Assembly (NCBI RefSeq): GCF_014639535.1
Contig: NZ_BMGA01000005.1
Coordinates: forward strand, 11,455-75,454
Direction of reading: 5' to 3'
Source of the DNA: Flavobacterium palustre
Lineage (GTDB): Bacteria > Bacteroidota > Bacteroidia > Flavobacteriales > Flavobacteriaceae
Length of the DNA stretch: 64,000 nt
Shown: positions 6,277 to 27,162 of the stretch, one piece after another
Numbering within the stretch: position 1 is the stretch's first letter
Layout of the letters: every line of letters starts with the position of its first letter
Notes under the pieces: generated by a model
The model's input: the letters and a program-made list of their open reading frames with translations, nothing else
Told to the model about the DNA's origin: nothing
Database searches by the model: none
Made by a program: the position numbers and the translations under genes

Positions 6277-6903
6277 ATGAAAACCTTATTACACCCTTCT
6301 TATTTCCCGTCGATTAGTCATTTTGTTGCCATGCTGCAATCAGAAAGTATCGTATTTGAGATGGAAGACAATTTTCAGAAGCAAACCAACAGAAACCGAA
6401 CCTATATCTACAGTCCAAACGGAATTCAGCTTTTAAATATTCCGATAAAGCATTCTAAAACGAGCCATCAAAAAACCAAAGACATTCAAATAGAAAACGA
6501 TTTTGACTGGCAAAAACAACATTTTAAATCCTTAGAAGCAGCATACAGAAGTTCGCCTTTCTTTGAATTCTTTGAAGATGATTTTGTTCCTTTTTTCGAA
6601 AAAAAACATACTTTTTTAATGGATTTGAATTTTGAAGCATTAGACATCATTTCTAAATGTATGCGAACTAAATTCAATTTTGAAACCACTACTGAATATT
6701 TCCACGAAGTAGATCCGAATGAAATTCAGGATTATCGATTTTTAGTTAATGGCAAAAAAGATCCTTCTGTTTTTGAATCCTACACCCAGGTTTTTGATGA
6801 TAAATTTGGTTTCATTAACAACTTAAGTATCCTGGATTTACTTTTTAACGAAGGAAAATTTACGGTTGATTATTTAAAATCACAAAGTTTAGCTATCCGA
6901 TAA
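6277..6903 (+). CDS. WbqC family protein
   Basis: A 208-residue protein of the WbqC-like family, recognised by the opening LLHPSYFPSISHFVAML, the central RNRTYIYSPNGIQLLNIPIKH and the later WQKQHFKSLEAAYRSSPFFEFFEDDF. WbqC proteins are linked to amino-sugar or polysaccharide biosynthesis, but the reaction is not firmly known. In flavobacteria this gene commonly follows lepB. The inverted repeat before it suggests its own promoter, though none was identified. Confidence 0.85.
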   Translation: MKTLLHPSYFPSISHFVAMLQSESIVFEMEDNFQKQTNRNRTYIYSPNGIQLLNIPIKHSKTSHQKTKDIQIENDFDWQKQHFKSLEAAYRSSPFFEFFEDDFVPFFEKKHTFLMDLNFEALDIISKCMRTKFNFETTTEYFHEVDPNEIQDYRFLVNGKKDPSVFESYTQVFDDKFGFINNLSILDLLFNEGKFTVDYLKSQSLAIR

Positions 6904-6920
6904 CTAAAAATTTTACCTCA

Positions 6921-7012
6921 AATTCACAAATTAATTTTTAAGCTTTGTGAACTTTGCGAAAACCCTTGTGTCCCGATAGCTATCGGGATTGCGGTTAAAA
7001 ATTGGTGAATTC
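6921..7012. repeat. Inverted repeat between convergent genes, with an inner palindrome
   Basis: Imperfect outer arms AATTCACAAATT...TTTTTAA and TTAAAAATTGGTGAATT enclose the perfect 18-bp palindrome TCCCGATAGCTATCGGGA at 6971-6988. It fills the gap between the convergent WbqC and EEP genes and could terminate both. The same palindrome recurs at 14,620. Confidence 0.75.
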
Positions 7013-7026
7013 GTGACTAAAAAAAA

Positions 7027-8073
7027 TTATTCCAATGACAATTTAGCCATTATTGGATAATGATCGGAATTATCAAATTCAGGGAAAGTTTCAAACTTTT
7101 TCACCTTCATCTCTCTGTCGGCAAAAATATAGTCTATACGGGCAGGATAATATTTAAAACGATAGGTTTGACCAAAACCTTTTCCTGCCTCCTCAAATCC
7201 GTCTTTTAAACTGCCTTTAATGATGCGATACACATAAGAGAAAGCACTATTATTCATATCTCCGCAAATAATTACCGGATATTTGCATTCTTTAATACTT
7301 TCCTTTAAAATTTCAGCTTGTTGTTGTTGCTGTTTAAAAGCCTTACTGATTCTAATAAACAACATCTGAGATTTTTGTTTATTAATTACATCAATATTCT
7401 CCGAAATCTCATTCACATCCGGTGAAATCTTAATCGACTGCAACTGCATATTATACACCCTGATAATATCCTTGCCTTTCTTTATATCGGCATAAACGAC
7501 ATTGTTATTTGAATTGGGGAAAGAAATTTTGCCTTCCTCAATAATTGGAAACTTAGAAAAAATAGCCTGTCCGGTCTTAATTTGTTTCCCTTCCATAAAA
7601 ATAGCACGATGCGGATAAACTTTCAAATCAACATGACCTGAATTAGAATACTCCTGAACACATAAAATATCGGGGTTTTTATCATTTATAAATTCCAAGA
7701 TAGTTTCCGGAATATCTGATTTATCCTGCCATTTGAATAAATTAAACAAACGCACATTATAACTCATGACCACAAAATCTTTGTCGGTTTCAGGGTACTC
7801 TTTAGTCGAGAATTTATAAAATTTATTGATAAAAGTAATTCCCATGAGCAACATCAGCCCCGAAAGTATCATCCTTTTTTTGAATTGAACGGCCCAATAC
7901 ACAAAAAAAAGAGTATTCAATATAAAAAACAAAGGCATAAACAAAGTTAGCACCGACAAAAGAGGAAAAGTCTTCGGTGCCAAAAACGGCAAAACATAAG
8001 CGATAAAAGTAAGGGCTATTAAAAGAATGTTTAAAGAAAACATTCCTTTGTTAAACCACGAAAGCTTTTTCAT
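7027..8073 (-). CDS. Endonuclease/exonuclease/phosphatase (EEP) family protein, membrane-anchored
   Basis: A 348-residue protein with three hydrophobic N-terminal segments (about 12-30, 38-60 and 68-85) and a metal-dependent EEP domain. Visible EEP motifs are VMSYNVRLFN near 103-112, the metal ligand glutamate in CVQEYSN near 140, CGDMNNS near 272 and the C-terminal SDHYPIMAKL. EEP enzymes cleave phosphodiesters in nucleic acids, lipids or small molecules. The topology puts the domain on one face of the membrane, but the substrate is unknown. It is downstream of two rhomboid genes on the same strand with a 53-base gap. Confidence 0.88.
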   Translation of the reverse strand: MKKLSWFNKGMFSLNILLIALTFIAYVLPFLAPKTFPLLSVLTLFMPLFFILNTLFFVYWAVQFKKRMILSGLMLLMGITFINKFYKFSTKEYPETDKDFVVMSYNVRLFNLFKWQDKSDIPETILEFINDKNPDILCVQEYSNSGHVDLKVYPHRAIFMEGKQIKTGQAIFSKFPIIEEGKISFPNSNNNVVYADIKKGKDIIRVYNMQLQSIKISPDVNEISENIDVINKQKSQMLFIRISKAFKQQQQQAEILKESIKECKYPVIICGDMNNSAFSYVYRIIKGSLKDGFEEAGKGFGQTYRFKYYPARIDYIFADREMKVKKFETFPEFDNSDHYPIMAKLSLE

Positions 8074-18415: not shown

Positions 18416-19522
18416 ATGCTTATACCGATTCTTTACTTTTTTATTGTTATAGTTGTTATTCAAATTGTGTATTATTTAGGTGTTTTTGGGAAATTTGCTT
18501 TCGCCAAAGCACAAAAAATAACACCCAAAAGAATTCCAATTTCTGTTATCGTTTGCGCCAAAAACGAAGAAGAAAATGTAGCCAAATATGTTCCGCTATT
18601 AGCCGAGCAAAACTACCCTGATTTTGAAATCGTTTTAATCGACGATGCTTCGAGTGATAATACCTTAGAATTATTTGAAGCCTTCGAAAAACAATATTCT
18701 AACATTCGTCTCGTTAAAGTACAAAACAACGAAGCCTTTTGGGGCAATAAAAAATACGCTTTAACCTTGGGAATCAAAGCCGCTAAAAAAGAATATTTGC
18801 TATTTACCGATGCCGATTGTTACCCAACATCAAAAGACTGGATAACCGCTATGAGTTCGCAATTTACCTTACACAAAACGATTGTTTTAGGCTACGGAGG
18901 CTATGAAAAAATAGCCAATTCGTTCCTGAATAAAGTCATTCGTTTTGAAACTTTGCTAACCGCAGTGCAATATTTTTCATGGGCTAAACTGGGACATCCT
19001 TACATGGGCGTTGGTCGCAATTTGGCTTACAAAAAAGAAGAATTTTTCAGGGTAAATGGTTTTATCAATCACATTCAGGTGCGTTCCGGTGATGATGATT
19101 TGTTCATTAACGAAGCTGCAAATGGCGGTAATACCACAGTGGCTTATTCTCCGGAAAGTTTTACCTATTCTGAACCGAAGAAAACATTCAAAGATTGGTT
19201 TACCCAAAAAAGACGACATGTAGCTACTGCTAAACATTATAAAACTTTTGACAAAATGCAATTGGGACTGTTTTATGCTTCTCAATTGTTATTTATCGTT
19301 TTAGCGACTGTTTTATTAGCTTTCCAATTTCAATGGATTTTAGTTTTGAGTCTGGTTGGTTTTCGCTATTTGTGTGCCTGGGTAACCATTGGTATCGCTG
19401 CGGGAAAATTAAAAGAAAAAGACATTAAATTTTGGTTTCCATTCGTAGAATTAGCGCTTGTTTTTACTCAAATCAATGTTTTTATCACTAATATTTTTTC
19501 AAAACCGGTCAATTGGAAATAA
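18416..19522 (+). CDS. Membrane glycosyltransferase family 2
   Basis: A 368-residue GT2 enzyme with an N-terminal membrane helix (about 2-22), a GT-A domain and two or three C-terminal helices (about 285-305, 310-330 and 340-360). GT2 motifs are VIVCAKNEEENV, LIDDASSDNT, FTDADC (metal-binding DxD equivalent) and GDDDLFIN, followed by FTQKRRHV in place of the Q/RxxRW motif of processive synthases. Product unknown. It overlaps the next gene by 10 bases. Confidence 0.9.
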   Translation: MLIPILYFFIVIVVIQIVYYLGVFGKFAFAKAQKITPKRIPISVIVCAKNEEENVAKYVPLLAEQNYPDFEIVLIDDASSDNTLELFEAFEKQYSNIRLVKVQNNEAFWGNKKYALTLGIKAAKKEYLLFTDADCYPTSKDWITAMSSQFTLHKTIVLGYGGYEKIANSFLNKVIRFETLLTAVQYFSWAKLGHPYMGVGRNLAYKKEEFFRVNGFINHIQVRSGDDDLFINEAANGGNTTVAYSPESFTYSEPKKTFKDWFTQKRRHVATAKHYKTFDKMQLGLFYASQLLFIVLATVLLAFQFQWILVLSLVGFRYLCAWVTIGIAAGKLKEKDIKFWFPFVELALVFTQINVFITNIFSKPVNWK

Positions 19523-20064
19523 AAACGCAAATAGAAAAAGCCAAACAAGGAGACCAAACGGCCTTTACTTTTCTATTGAATCATTATTGGAGTGAAGTTT
19601 ACGGTTTCATGCTCAAACGCACCGAAAACGAAACCAATGCCGAAGATATTACCATTGAAACTTTTTCAAAAGCTTTTGACAAAATTGCCACTTACAATCC
19701 TGAATTTCAGTTCAACACCTGGTTAATTTCGATTGCTAAAAATGTGTATATCGATATGCTTCGCAAAAGAAAATCCAGCCTTTTTGTGGAAATTACCGAA
19801 CAGGAAGACCAGAAAGCTTACAACATTGCCGATACCACTCCGTCTAAAGAAGACGAACTGATTACCGAGCAAAACCTCTCGCAATTACTGCAATACATCA
19901 AAGAACTGAAACCGCATTATCAGGAAGTAATCCAGCTGCGTTATTTTCAGGAAATGAGCTATCAGGAAATAGCCAACAAAATTGACGAACCTCTCAACAA
20001 CGTCAAAGTAAAACTCCTAAGAGCTAAGAAATTACTGGCTGAGATTATCAATAATCGTAGGTAA
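19513..20064 (+). CDS. RNA polymerase sigma factor, ECF type
   Basis: A 183-residue sigma-70 family factor with region 2 (NHYWSEVYGFMLKRTENETNAEDITIETF, only core words recognised) and region 4 (YQEVIQLRYFQEMSYQEIA...VKLLRAKKLL). The TTG start overlaps the end of the GT2 gene, which suggests coupling. No anti-sigma gene is adjacent on either side, which is unusual for ECF factors. The targets cannot be inferred. Confidence 0.9.
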   Translation: MEIKTQIEKAKQGDQTAFTFLLNHYWSEVYGFMLKRTENETNAEDITIETFSKAFDKIATYNPEFQFNTWLISIAKNVYIDMLRKRKSSLFVEITEQEDQKAYNIADTTPSKEDELITEQNLSQLLQYIKELKPHYQEVIQLRYFQEMSYQEIANKIDEPLNNVKVKLLRAKKLLAEIINNRR

Positions 20065-20130
20065 TATTTTTTTAAACCATTAAGACATTAAGATTTAGTA
20101 TGACTTTCTTTTACAAGTAAGAAAAGTTTT

Positions 20131-20138
20131 TATATTTG
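20131..20138 (+). promoter_or_regulatory. Predicted promoter before the unknown cassette-like gene
   Basis: TATATTTG, a full TAnnTTTG match, lies 128 bases before the start of the unknown gene and just upstream of the palindrome at 20,204. Confidence 0.4.
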
Positions 20139-20203
20139 TGTTTGTAATTAGAAATAATACGCAGCAATAATTAAAAAAATATGCGCATTACATACCGATA
20201 AAA

Positions 20204-20246
20204 GATATAACTAGTTTGGTTTATGCGTGTATAAACTAGTTAGATG
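20204..20246. repeat. attC-like imperfect palindrome, 5' side of the unknown gene
   Basis: GATATAACTAGTTT (20,204-20,217) and AAACTAGTTAGAT (20,233-20,245) form a long stem with one mismatch, and the right arm carries GTTAGAT, which fits the integron core pattern GTTRRRY. It lies 20 bases before the start codon of the gene at 20,266. Function is inferred from layout only. Confidence 0.45.
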
Positions 20247-20265
20247 CCATTTTAAAGAAATACAC

Positions 20266-21240
20266 ATGAGAAAAGCATTAATCGGTTTTAGTAGCCCAAC
20301 TGCATATTTTTATGACCATGACCGTCAATATTTTAATGAGCCTTGGAGATGGAATCCAATACTGGAATCTCCACAAGGACTATTGACACTATATGATGAA
20401 CTCTGGTTTATAACTCGGGCGCTATGCCCAGTTAATCTTCGGAACGAAAATTATGTAAAATTTCTTGATGATGATTCAACTTATCAAACGATTGTACAAC
20501 AAATTTTATCAGATTTCACAAATAAAAAATTCGAAGAGTTCGTACTACATTATCCTTATTTGAACGAGATAATGGATACATCTAAATCATTCATAACTAG
20601 TGCCGAAATTTCTAACTATGGAAATATTGTTAGACAAGTATATGGCAAAAAAACAGGATCTGGATTACCCTTAGATAATCATAGTCACAATATCGAAATA
20701 TTTGGAAACGACATTTCAGGAAATTCATTTAGAATTGATTTGTTAGCTTTGGATAACGTAATTTGTGATTATTTATATGTTCCTAATTTAGAACTAATTA
20801 CAAATAGATTTAATAGTAGTTATATTAATCCAAAATATAATACATTAAATCAAATTATTACATCTCAAGCCATAACTGTGAAAAGAATTCCTGTCTCGCA
20901 AACGCCAGTCGGCCCCGTATTACAAAACATCGAACAGATTAGAGAAAACAATTATTTGGTAGACTTTCGGAACAAAATAATATCCAATTCGAAAATTGAA
21001 GATGCGCAAGAATTGGTTCCGAAAATAGAAACTGAATTTAATAATTATCGAAATCAACTACTCATTGACAAACATAAGGATGCAACTTTAGCAACGAGTT
21101 TATCAAATACTATACTTACTGTAGTCAAAGACTCTATGTTTTCAGGTTTGAATGCAATTCAAGAAATTGGAGAAAAAAGAAATACTAGAAAAATGGATTG
21201 GACAGCCTTCGTATCAAAAATCGATAAAAACGGCATCTAA
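20266..21240 (+). CDS. Protein of unknown function, cassette-like context
   Basis: A 324-residue protein that I do not recognise. It has no signal peptide or membrane helix. It opens MRKALIGFSSPTAYFYDHD and is rich in Asn, Ile and aromatic residues, with a long helical, charged C-terminal third (about 235-310). The ATG at 20,266 is preferred to an upstream TAT-like extension because the upstream bases are part of the palindrome. Its stop codon lies 8 bases before a second palindromic site. Base composition is more AT-rich than its neighbours. It may be an acquired gene such as a defence or toxin component, but no motif supports a specific role. Confidence 0.7.
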   Translation: MRKALIGFSSPTAYFYDHDRQYFNEPWRWNPILESPQGLLTLYDELWFITRALCPVNLRNENYVKFLDDDSTYQTIVQQILSDFTNKKFEEFVLHYPYLNEIMDTSKSFITSAEISNYGNIVRQVYGKKTGSGLPLDNHSHNIEIFGNDISGNSFRIDLLALDNVICDYLYVPNLELITNRFNSSYINPKYNTLNQIITSQAITVKRIPVSQTPVGPVLQNIEQIRENNYLVDFRNKIISNSKIEDAQELVPKIETEFNNYRNQLLIDKHKDATLATSLSNTILTVVKDSMFSGLNAIQEIGEKRNTRKMDWTAFVSKIDKNGI

Positions 21241-21241
21241 A

Positions 21242-21370
21242 CCCGACCGCTAAGATATACCTAAACGTTAGCGCAGAATTGCATTCTGTGCCCACAACAA
21301 TGAGCAAATCCTATACATAAAATACTTTTTGGAATAACCAAATAAGATTGCTTCGCCAGTTCCTCGCTAC
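21242..21370. repeat. Copy 1 of a ~130-bp direct repeat with attC-like head
   Basis: It starts CCCGACCGCTAAGATATAC and contains AACGTTAGCG, GAATTGCATTCTGTGCCC, CAACAATGAGC and AGATTGCTTCG. CGCTAA (21,248-21,253) and TTAGCG (21,268-21,273) form an inverted pair with a core resembling GTTAGC. The matching copy is at 21,692. Confidence 0.7.
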
Positions 21371-21469: not shown

Positions 21470-21620
21470 ACACAAACCAAAAAAGTATCTAATAGTCTTT
21501 TTTAAGTATGCTATAGGACTCTTTTTAGTACTATAACGTCTTTTTTAACTCCGCTAATGGACGTTTTAAGTACCTTAAGGTACTTTTTAAGTACGCTACA
21601 GGATGTTTTTAGTACCATTG
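21470..21620. repeat. Degenerate ~21-bp tandem repeat array
   Basis: Six to eight imperfect units with the plus-strand pattern cTTTTTAAGTACgCTAnnGGa repeat every 19-23 bases. On the minus strand, several units translate in one frame as heptads of the form VLKxxxx (VLKTSCS, VLKKYLK, VLKTSIS, GVKKDVI, VLKRVL). Units diverge and lack spacers, so this is not a CRISPR. It may be a minisatellite or the remains of a repeat-protein gene. Confidence 0.6.
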
Positions 21621-21691
21621 CGCCTTTTTTTGGTTCTATAATAGTATGATAATGACCCAACCGCCCGGTTAGCCCCACGCTGCCGCAAGAA

Positions 21692-21830
21692 TCCCGACCG
21701 CTCGGATATACACACAAACGTTAGCAGAATTGCATTCTGTGCCCGCAACAATGAGCCAATAACACAAGCAAATACTTTGTGGAATTACTGGATGAGATTG
21801 CTTCGTTCCGATAGCAATCGGAACTCGCAA
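21692..21830. repeat. Copy 2 of the ~130-bp direct repeat
   Basis: CCCGACCGCTCGGATATAC, AAACGTTAGC, AGAATTGCATTCTGTGCCC, CAACAATGAGCC and GAGATTGCTTCG match copy 1 in the same order. It ends in a CCGATAGCAATCGG hairpin and CTCGCAATGACAAG. A further GGTTAGCCCCACGCTGCCGC word lies just before it at 21,666. Confidence 0.7.
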
Positions 21831-26166: not shown

Positions 26167-27162
26167 TTGAAAACAAGAATTGCCATCAATGGTTTTGGTC
26201 GAATTGGCCGAAATCTGTTTCGACTACTTTTAAATCATCCTGAAATAGAAGTGGTTGCCATCAATGATATTGCCGATACTCAAACCATGGCACATTTGAT
26301 AAAATACGATAGCATTCACGGTGTTTTGCCTCAAACAGTCATTGCTGACGAAAAAGGCTTTTCTATTGAAGGAACGCATTTTTTATTTTTCCACGAAAAA
26401 AACATTTCAAATCTAAACTGGAAAGATCTAAACATTGATTTTGTTATTGAATCCACAGGGAAATACAAAACACACGAAGATTTAAACAAACACATTATTG
26501 CGGGTGCAAAAAAAGTAATTCTTTCGGCACCTTCAGAAGTTGACACTATCAAAACAGTGGTTTTGGGTGTTAACCAACATATTTTGGACGGTACTGAAAA
26601 AATTATTTCAAATGCGAGTTGTACGACTAACAATGCCGCTCCAATGATTAAAATAATCGATGAACTTTGCGGAATTGAGCAGGCATACATCACTACCATT
26701 CACTCTTTTACAACCGATCAAAGTTTGCACGACCAGCCACACAAGGACTTAAGAAGAGCCCGTGGAGCCAGTCAATCCATTGTCCCTACAACAACCGGAG
26801 CTGCTAAAGCATTGACAAAAATTTTCCCTATCTTAGAGGGCAAAATTGGCGGATGTGGTATTCGTGTTCCTGTTCCGGACGGCTCATTGACTGATATTAC
26901 TTTTAATGTAAAAAAAGCGGTATCAATACAAGAAATCAACGAAGCATTTAAACAGGCTTCGCTAAATGAACTAAAAGGAATTCTGGATTACACAGAAGAT
27001 CCAATTGTATCAGTAGATATTTTAGGAAATAAAAACTCCTGTTTATTTGATGCGCAACTTACTTCGGTTATTGATAAAATGGTAAAAGTAGTAGGCTGGT
27101 ATGACAATGAAATTGGATATTCATCGCGTTTGATCGATTTAATACTTTTGACAAAAAACTAA
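26167..27162 (+). CDS. gap: Glyceraldehyde-3-phosphate dehydrogenase
   Basis: GAPDH of 331 residues, oxidising glyceraldehyde 3-phosphate to 1,3-bisphosphoglycerate. Rossmann motif NGFGRIGRN is at 8-16 and Asp34 suggests NAD preference. The catalytic cysteine is C152 in SNASCTTNNAAP, and WYDNEIGYSSRL near 309-320 is conserved. The start codon is TTG; no in-frame ATG gives the expected N-terminus. It may be one of several gap paralogues. It is closely followed by the hybrid kinase gene. Confidence 0.93.
   Translation: MKTRIAINGFGRIGRNLFRLLLNHPEIEVVAINDIADTQTMAHLIKYDSIHGVLPQTVIADEKGFSIEGTHFLFFHEKNISNLNWKDLNIDFVIESTGKYKTHEDLNKHIIAGAKKVILSAPSEVDTIKTVVLGVNQHILDGTEKIISNASCTTNNAAPMIKIIDELCGIEQAYITTIHSFTTDQSLHDQPHKDLRRARGASQSIVPTTTGAAKALTKIFPILEGKIGGCGIRVPVPDGSLTDITFNVKKAVSIQEINEAFKQASLNELKGILDYTEDPIVSVDILGNKNSCLFDAQLTSVIDKMVKVVGWYDNEIGYSSRLIDLILLTKN

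Follow-up and report, generated by a model that had tools for sequence, protein, structure and literature searches.

The cassette and its setting

The gene at positions 20,266 to 21,240 (plus strand) of the window, i.e., of the whole analyzed stretch of 64,000 nucleotides, raises the question of how a lone gene comes to lie between palindromes reminiscent of integron recombination sites. A sequence-only reading had taken it for a candidate gene cassette between two attC-like sites, without an integrase. The last of these statements is valid for the neighborhood of the gene but not for the genome, in which an integrase is encoded on another contig. Typically, in an integron, one attI site and one promoter serve one array, according to passages of PMC11551772. 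The locus is best explained, with a probability of about 0.83, as one integron cassette of the Bacteroidota kind that occupies an integrase-free attI docking site, the integrase being encoded once, on a different contig. Sequence comparisons establish a distributed architecture that consists of dispersed modules, a cassette end signature, a conserved attC fold, an integrase, and a gene content that differs between equivalent sites of related species.

A promoter-attI module upstream of the gene

The imperfect palindrome reported on the 5′ side is real: it spans 20,205–20,245 on the plus strand, with arms at 20,205–20,217 and 20,233–20,245 that are complementary in 12 of 13 positions and GTTAGAT in the right arm. 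It folds better than shuffled sequence (z about −3.1), on the plus strand (z −3.06, equaled by 0 of 200 shuffles) as well as on the minus strand (z −3.18, 2 of 200). Its assignment as attC was nevertheless rejected, so that the description of the gene as lying between attC-like sites fails on this side. The palindrome makes up no more than the right end of a conserved 130-base promoter-attI module of type B (20,112–20,242, plus strand), an attI-type docking site without an integrase that the sequence-only reading had overlooked. The R3 model, built from seven type-B modules that include the window and align across 130 bases, matches it with 119.7 bits, a score obtained with the window sequence in the training set. 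A leave-one-out type-B nhmmer profile from which the window was excluded identifies 20,113–20,241 with E=2.2e-19, which places the site within the attI family, and the E-value is 3.9e-21 when two orthologous sites are removed as well; the type-A profile misses the module (E 1.9).

In related genomes, the sites located past the stop codons of integrase genes share a core that resembles TATAnACnAG|TT and, beyond the core, a longer module with an element similar to TATATTTG. Alignment with these integrase-adjacent sites places the crossover in the window at G20239|T20240, so that the cassette begins at G|TT. In genome G150, a type-B site adjoins an integrase that is 67% identical to the one encoded in F. 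palustre; thus, type B represents a genuine attI. The integrase subtype that abuts the type-B attI in G150 was not found in the F. palustre genome, and the resident integrase is of type A, a point that counts against its use of the window site. Contig C66 of G150 (6456–7616) carries a second complete integron type, with an integrase, a type-B attI and three downstream attC sites.

The module includes a candidate −7 promoter element, TATATTTG (20,131–20,138, plus strand), that matches TAnnTTTG, the Bacteroidota consensus. A strict TAnnTTTG occurs within the first 60 nucleotides of 13 of the 17 attI modules of this genome compared to 3.3% of random 60-nucleotide stretches of the window. Upstream of the docking site, the gene for an ECF sigma factor (19,513–20,064, plus strand, with domains Sigma70_r2 and r4) provides a conserved chromosomal anchor.

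An integrase could, in principle, have placed the cassette into an unrelated genomic site resembling attI by chance, and insertion of cassettes by IntI1 at such genomic attG sites is reported in passages of PMC12901181. Here, however, the site is not a short target but the conserved 130-base module with a candidate promoter that the leave-one-out profile recovers, and the same module is found in the same place, followed by other genes, in genomes G071 and G005. Such a chance insertion appears very improbable.

The cassette end signature

Immediately past the crossover, the cassette starts with TTAGATGCC-A-TTTT (20,240–20,253, plus strand), and it ends with AAAA-C-GGCATCTAA (21,227–21,240, plus strand), which overlaps the stop codon. 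These complementary 14-base ends had escaped the sequence-only reading. In full, TTAGATGCCATTTT at the 5′ end pairs with AAAACGGCATCTAA at the 3′ end in 13 of 14 positions, namely nine matches, a fixed mismatch at position 10 and four further matches, so that all 11 of the 11 scored positions agree.

The same pattern is typical of cassettes from related arrays. For 100 cassettes delimited by consecutive attC sites, the first 20 bases were compared with the complement of the last 20. The input comprised 141 attC matches (19 from the F. palustre genome and 122 others), 12 of which were excluded because no AAC or GTT could be read in them; the source listing held 139 matches, eight of them from F. 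palustre (entered among the 19), 122 that were used and nine weak or truncated ones that were omitted, and seven of the 100 end pairs come from the F. palustre genome. Agreement is 78–100%, depending on the position, at positions 1–9, never occurs at position 10, is 84–94% at positions 11–14, and declines to the background level beyond. The complete 11/11 match is present in 64 of the 100 cassettes (the minimum is 7) compared to 14 of 9900 cross-pairs of different cassettes. Among all GTT starts in the window, an 11/11 partner located 150–3000 bases downstream exists for 3 of 1089 on the plus strand, one of which is the gene in question, and for 0 of 1450 on the minus strand. Thus, the gene has the end signature typical of 100 related cassettes, with a start and an end that fit its coding region, in support of the original suggestion of a gene cassette.

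In 88 of the 100 cassettes, position 10 combines an A in the 5′ end with a C in the 3′ end and, therefore, yields an A-C mismatch on the top strand and a G-T pair on the bottom strand. When the circular forms are folded with DNA parameters, the bottom strand is the more stable one in 96 of the 100 cassettes, and the 14-base extension shifts the balance toward this strand in 97. The fixed mismatch ten bases into the paired ends, which becomes G-T on the bottom strand, may aid the choice of strand.

The integrase and the attC sites

The integrase resides in locus L090 on contig C8, where, downstream of a gene for a tyrosine recombinase of 347 amino acids, an attI-like site precedes six cassettes, of which five contain a single gene and one contains two (reading frames assessed by eye). 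Each cassette ends in an attC of approximately 120–140 bases, and the R1 model of attC yields six matches in this locus. The protein is a tyrosine recombinase, as required of an integron integrase: it matches Phage_integrase with 134.8 bits and TIGR02249 with 200.8 bits, the latter below the cut-off of 265. The score against NCBIfam NF040815 (XerA, “site-specific tyrosine recombinase/integron integrase”) is 218.5 bits compared to a cut-off of 220, which three of the four relatives tested alongside it pass; this family name alone implies no attI or attC context. Integrase family models alone were abandoned as a search tool. Because TIGR02249 matches 14 of 14 control genomes and 59 of 60 relatives but never above the cut-off, models of attC and attI were used instead.

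The additional domain of IntI, near patch III, is absent. The corresponding motifs are 72 residues apart in the F. palustre protein and 71–72 residues apart in all 79 relatives that could be measured (80 loci, one not measurable) compared to 114 residues in IntI4 (a manual count on the alignment). The Bacteroidota system is predicted to work like an integron but fails one defining feature of the classical IntI.

The attC model is based on 48 sites from 18 loci. In the stem, 14 of 15 pairs have changed on both sides, and 95.0% of the cells are paired compared to 60.4% after shuffling; when the partners are slid by 1 to 3 columns, pairing falls to 33–45%. The covariation score is 0.813 compared to 0.197 for the shuffled alignment. 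Thus, these sites form an array of foldable attC. In the core boxes, AAC and GTT are invariant in all 48 sites, and the other box positions vary. The model detects 19 sites in the F. palustre genome at E≤0.001 (20 at E≤0.1) and is positive in 37 of 60 genomes, 33 of these being among the 37 that belong to the genus. Next to integrase genes, 24 attI sites could be aligned, and these constitute the R2 model.

Relatives of the integrase (E≤1e-60) are encoded in 87 of 149 genomes of the genus, including F. palustre; the others are 39 to 87% identical to its integrase, and some are fragmentary or interrupted by stop codons. Of 559 relatives found in genome_contigs, 80 loci were kept that include Flavobacterium, Chitinophagaceae, Saprospiraceae, Algoriphagus and Bacteroidales as well as one metagenome-assembled genome labelled Ignavibacteria and one labelled Azoarcus. 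An R2 attI is present in 49 of the 80 loci, nearly always starting 3 bases inside the end of the integrase gene, and attC matches in 46 (162 of 163 on the integrase strand), counts that are affected by contig ends that break many of these loci.

Dispersed docking sites

In the F. palustre genome, R2 identifies 12 sites, one of which adjoins the integrase, and R3 identifies six; with one site common to both, there are 17 distinct attI-like sites and one such integrase. The R2 training set held one site of this genome, so that 11 of the 12 matches are new, whereas five of the seven R3 training modules come from this genome, including the window, so that just one of the six matches is new. Integrase homology within 2.5 kb upstream (E≤0.1, same strand) was detected at L090 only and at none of the other 16 sites. 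On the module strand, an open reading frame of 60 codons or more starts 15–132 bases past the crossover at all 17 sites, and a matched cassette 3′ end is present at 13 and absent at four, under a lower limit of 9/11 that is looser than the 11/11 of the control scan. A recognizable attC lies downstream of 9 of the 16 integrase-free sites.

Across 40 genomes, F. palustre included, R2 sites were found in 16, with a sum of 98 sites when the counts for each genome are added. Four of these sites begin where a listed integrase ends, in F. palustre, G005, G007 and G019, respectively; the integrase survey covered genomes that are at least 90% complete, so that three of the 16 (G003, G014 and G021) fall outside it. 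Genome G017 has 16 R2 sites and no integrase at E≤1e-60; accordingly, some modules may be relics. Of the 40 attI sites tested, which come from six genomes, two lie directly next to an integrase, and 11 others follow a sequence that matches only the last 18–35 codons of the integrase gene; all 11 are in G017 or G005 and none in F. palustre, and for two of them (L292) the best match is the tail of an earlier tandem unit. This locus (2782–5964 on contig C32 of G017) consists of four tandem units, each with an integrase tail, an attI and a gene, spaced by about 1 kb.

These remnants suggest a different origin of the integrase-free modules, namely, that they are what is left of complete integrons in which the integrase decayed and the promoter, the attI and a first cassette, now immobile, stayed behind. 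Such a scenario would account for the integrase tails upstream of 11 of the 40 sites, for the tandem units of G017, for a tail found at the window position in G150 (L226), and for a window cassette without attC. It does not, however, readily explain the lack of integrase homology upstream of all 16 integrase-free sites in F. palustre or the attC that is still recognizable at nine of them. It is further weakened by the presence of different genes at corresponding sites of close relatives that is described below. Taken together, decay is an unlikely, although by no means negligible, explanation for this genome.

Different genes at corresponding sites

The sigma factor gene is present in 144 of 150 genomes of the genus (E≤1e-60), and the 30 best loci were retrieved for comparison. 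The promoter element is present in the four loci with the most similar sigma factor gene, and the gene behind it is a different one each time, encoding 324 amino acids in F. palustre, 218 in G071, 288 in G182 and 251 in G005. In close relatives, the sigma factor genes at this position are 95–99% identical and the cassette genes differ. The module itself varies: in G182, only the promoter is found and attI is absent; in G071, the attI core is changed; and in G071 and G005 the same module precedes other genes. In G150 (L226), an integrase tail and an attI are followed by yet another gene. The attI profiles match four of the 30 sigma factor loci and no other (L204, that is, the F. palustre locus, L205, L207 and L226), L205 and L207 having been among the sequences that trained the type-B profile. 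A cassette that F. palustre carries at a different docking site (L197) shares 70% identity with the 288-aa gene of G182. The MFS transporter gene downstream was rejected as an anchor for the corresponding site given that this flank differs in G080 and G178; the upstream sigma factor gene served instead.

Three further F. palustre sites (L202, L285 and L287) have counterparts in relatives where docking sites lie behind the same upstream gene (66–95% identical). Altogether, seven pairs of docking sites that involve four F. palustre sites were compared, two of the pairs being from the window, and the next genes differ: the F. palustre cassette gene has no match in the other locus at E≤1e-8 in any of the seven. 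This set omits one weak candidate, the pair L074–L301 (24% identity), and the pairs in which the upstream gene is the integrase (L238, L239, L277 and L299). Because corresponding sites of close relatives hold different genes, exchange after the placement of the module appears likely.

These observations are compatible with recombination in trans by the resident integrase and with an active promoter in each module, both as predicted from sequence. An excised circular cassette would present its attC as a folded bottom strand, the L090 integrase would recombine it with G|TT at any of the approximately 17 chromosomal attI modules, and the module promoter would then transcribe the incoming gene, with cassettes at the docking sites being replaced over time. 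Each new cassette would thereby take the first position in a locus of its own and be transcribed directly rather than join the queue in one array. On a broader scale, it seems reasonably probable that Bacteroidota possess a distributed integron in which many promoter-attI sites share a single IntI-like recombinase that lacks the additional domain and strand choice is helped by the A/C mismatch.

An interspersed repeat in place of attC

The palindrome of the form CGCTAA...TTAGCG that the sequence-only reading described on the 3′ side does exist (21,248–21,273, starting 7 bases past the stop codon), as do the further GTTAGC cores (at 21,668 and 21,720). Its interpretation as an attC-like site is not tenable. 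The fold does not exceed chance expectation (z −1.09 and −0.73, equaled by 23 and 45 of 200 shuffles), and the sequence is part of an interspersed repeat, the first copy of which (21,239–21,355, plus strand) occupies the position of attC and is 81% identical to a second copy (21,690–21,805, plus strand). The repeat was rejected as an attC given its chance-level fold, its occurrence elsewhere in the genome and the lack of a convincing match to the attC model. The covariance-model search that the reading had proposed gives, across the whole window, a best hit of E 1.7 at 26,975–27,064, away from the cassette, so that the attC claim falls. The repeat has 12 matches in the genome in all (E≤0.01), some near docking sites and others not. 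The occurrence of the 3′ repeat without a docking site in part bears out the second ground for refutation that the sequence-only reading had named, namely, flanks present elsewhere without the gene-cassette order. The motif AACGTTAGC was rejected as a marker of cassette ends, with 17 occurrences in the genome compared to 38 of a reversed control pattern. Between the two repeat copies, the window contains three imperfect tandem units of 42–43 bases (21,483–21,630).

The canonical core boxes of integrons are RYYYAAC and GTTRRRY. The 5′ box of the window, GTTAGAT, fits the latter, and the 3′ box ends with CTAAA instead of CTAAC. Among the 13 F. palustre docking sites with matched ends, 12 continue with TAA|C, and the window continues with TAA|ACCC into the repeat. 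The replacement of TAA|C by TAA|ACCC, with the repeat at that very place, indicates that the attC of this cassette is missing; the cassette has no attC of its own, and the window contains no attC by which it could be classified as a CALIN or a single-attC element. The same repeat also follows the gene in G071 and, judged by eye from a single short match, in G005; in L069, it intrudes into an attC. It seems that the repeat caps or truncates the last attC on the 3′ side of several docking sites. In L069 (5644–6236, genome G005), a HigB/HigA-like gene pair, recognized from its translations, is directly followed by the repeat. Given the loss of attC to a repeat, the window cassette is probably locked in place and could not be excised by the normal route, so that a once mobile cassette would now be fixed.

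The chance-level fold of the 3′ palindrome within a repeat, and the copies of that repeat without a nearby docking site, might be taken to mean that the palindromes are ordinary repeats or terminators unrelated to any integron and that the gene was acquired by another route. Such an explanation does not predict the exact end signature, the attI module or the different genes at corresponding sites, and is hardly tenable in the face of these findings.

The cassette gene

As the sequence-only reading had indicated, the cassette carries a gene that starts at 20,266; it extends to 21,240 (plus strand) and encodes a protein of 324 amino acids that is not a member of any known family. Searches of NCBIfam and PADLOC yield no matches, the single Pfam match, IML1, is below the cut-off (E 0.005), and the only PHROG match is a family of unknown function (E 0.26). 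No relatives were detected in the 59 other genomes searched, none were confirmed in genome_contigs or viral_contigs, and none were found in phages or among PDB sequences. The sole distant full-length relative (26% identical) is encoded on a plasmid of the haloarchaeon Halorussus halophilus (L194, 5986–6927) and itself belongs to no Pfam family.

Ten genes at docking sites of the F. palustre genome were searched to characterize the cargo. Four have Pfam matches at E≤0.001 (SIR2-like, AAA ATPase, DUF4062 and DUF5677-like, the last one below the cut-off), and six have none at this threshold. Two of the ten have PADLOC matches, the SIR2-like protein to PDC-S25 (545.9 bits) and the ATPase to both AriA (116 bits) and Old; the other eight genes have none. 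Because genes for SIR2, an OLD-like ATPase and DUF4062 occupy other docking sites, the best guess, made with low confidence, is that the 324-aa protein plays an accessory role such as phage defense.

Comparison with known systems

If correct, the proposed scheme implies that the combination of many promoter-attI sites with one integrase would allow every latest arrival to be expressed from a locus of its own, and that an integron form lacking the IntI additional domain occurs widely among Bacteroidota. Such a form would also put to the test the need for this domain in the recombination of folded attC strands. Integrons from Bacteroidota are on record, as passages of PMC8618304, PMC9668308 and PMC2426708 attest; the portion of the IntegronFinder 2.0 report that bears on this group names a single complete integron for Bacteroidetes proper, and the selection of integrases described in passages of PMC2426708 relied on the IntI additional domain or its patch. 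Surveys that select on this domain would be expected to miss the Bacteroidota group. Among the matches listed for the open-access literature without preprints, none describes Flavobacterium integrons of this type or dispersed attI modules.

The closest known counterpart is the sedentary chromosomal integron, with which the system shares a tyrosine recombinase gene, a candidate promoter, an attI with G|TT, and attC cassettes for which the bottom strand folds best. It differs in the lack of the IntI additional domain (a spacing of 72 residues compared to 114 in IntI4), in core boxes where only AAC and GTT are invariant, in the 14-base pairing of the cassette ends, which includes a fixed mismatch, and in the many dispersed attI modules without an integrase. 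CALIN and single attC elements are similar in that their cassettes are distant from the integrase; however, a CALIN is defined by its attC sites, whereas here the promoter-attI module is the defining element and the window has no attC. Insertion at attG sites likewise places cassettes away from the integrase-linked attI, but attG is a non-classical target, and the site analyzed here is a member of a family of 130-base attI modules with a candidate promoter. Finally, the Delta-attI cassettes of class 1 and 2 integrons, as described in passages of PMC12901181, resemble the present case in having an attI away from its integrase. In those cassettes, according to the same passages, a partial attI replaces attC downstream of the gene, whereas in the window the gene is preceded, at a conserved position of the chromosome, by a longer attI module that includes a candidate promoter.
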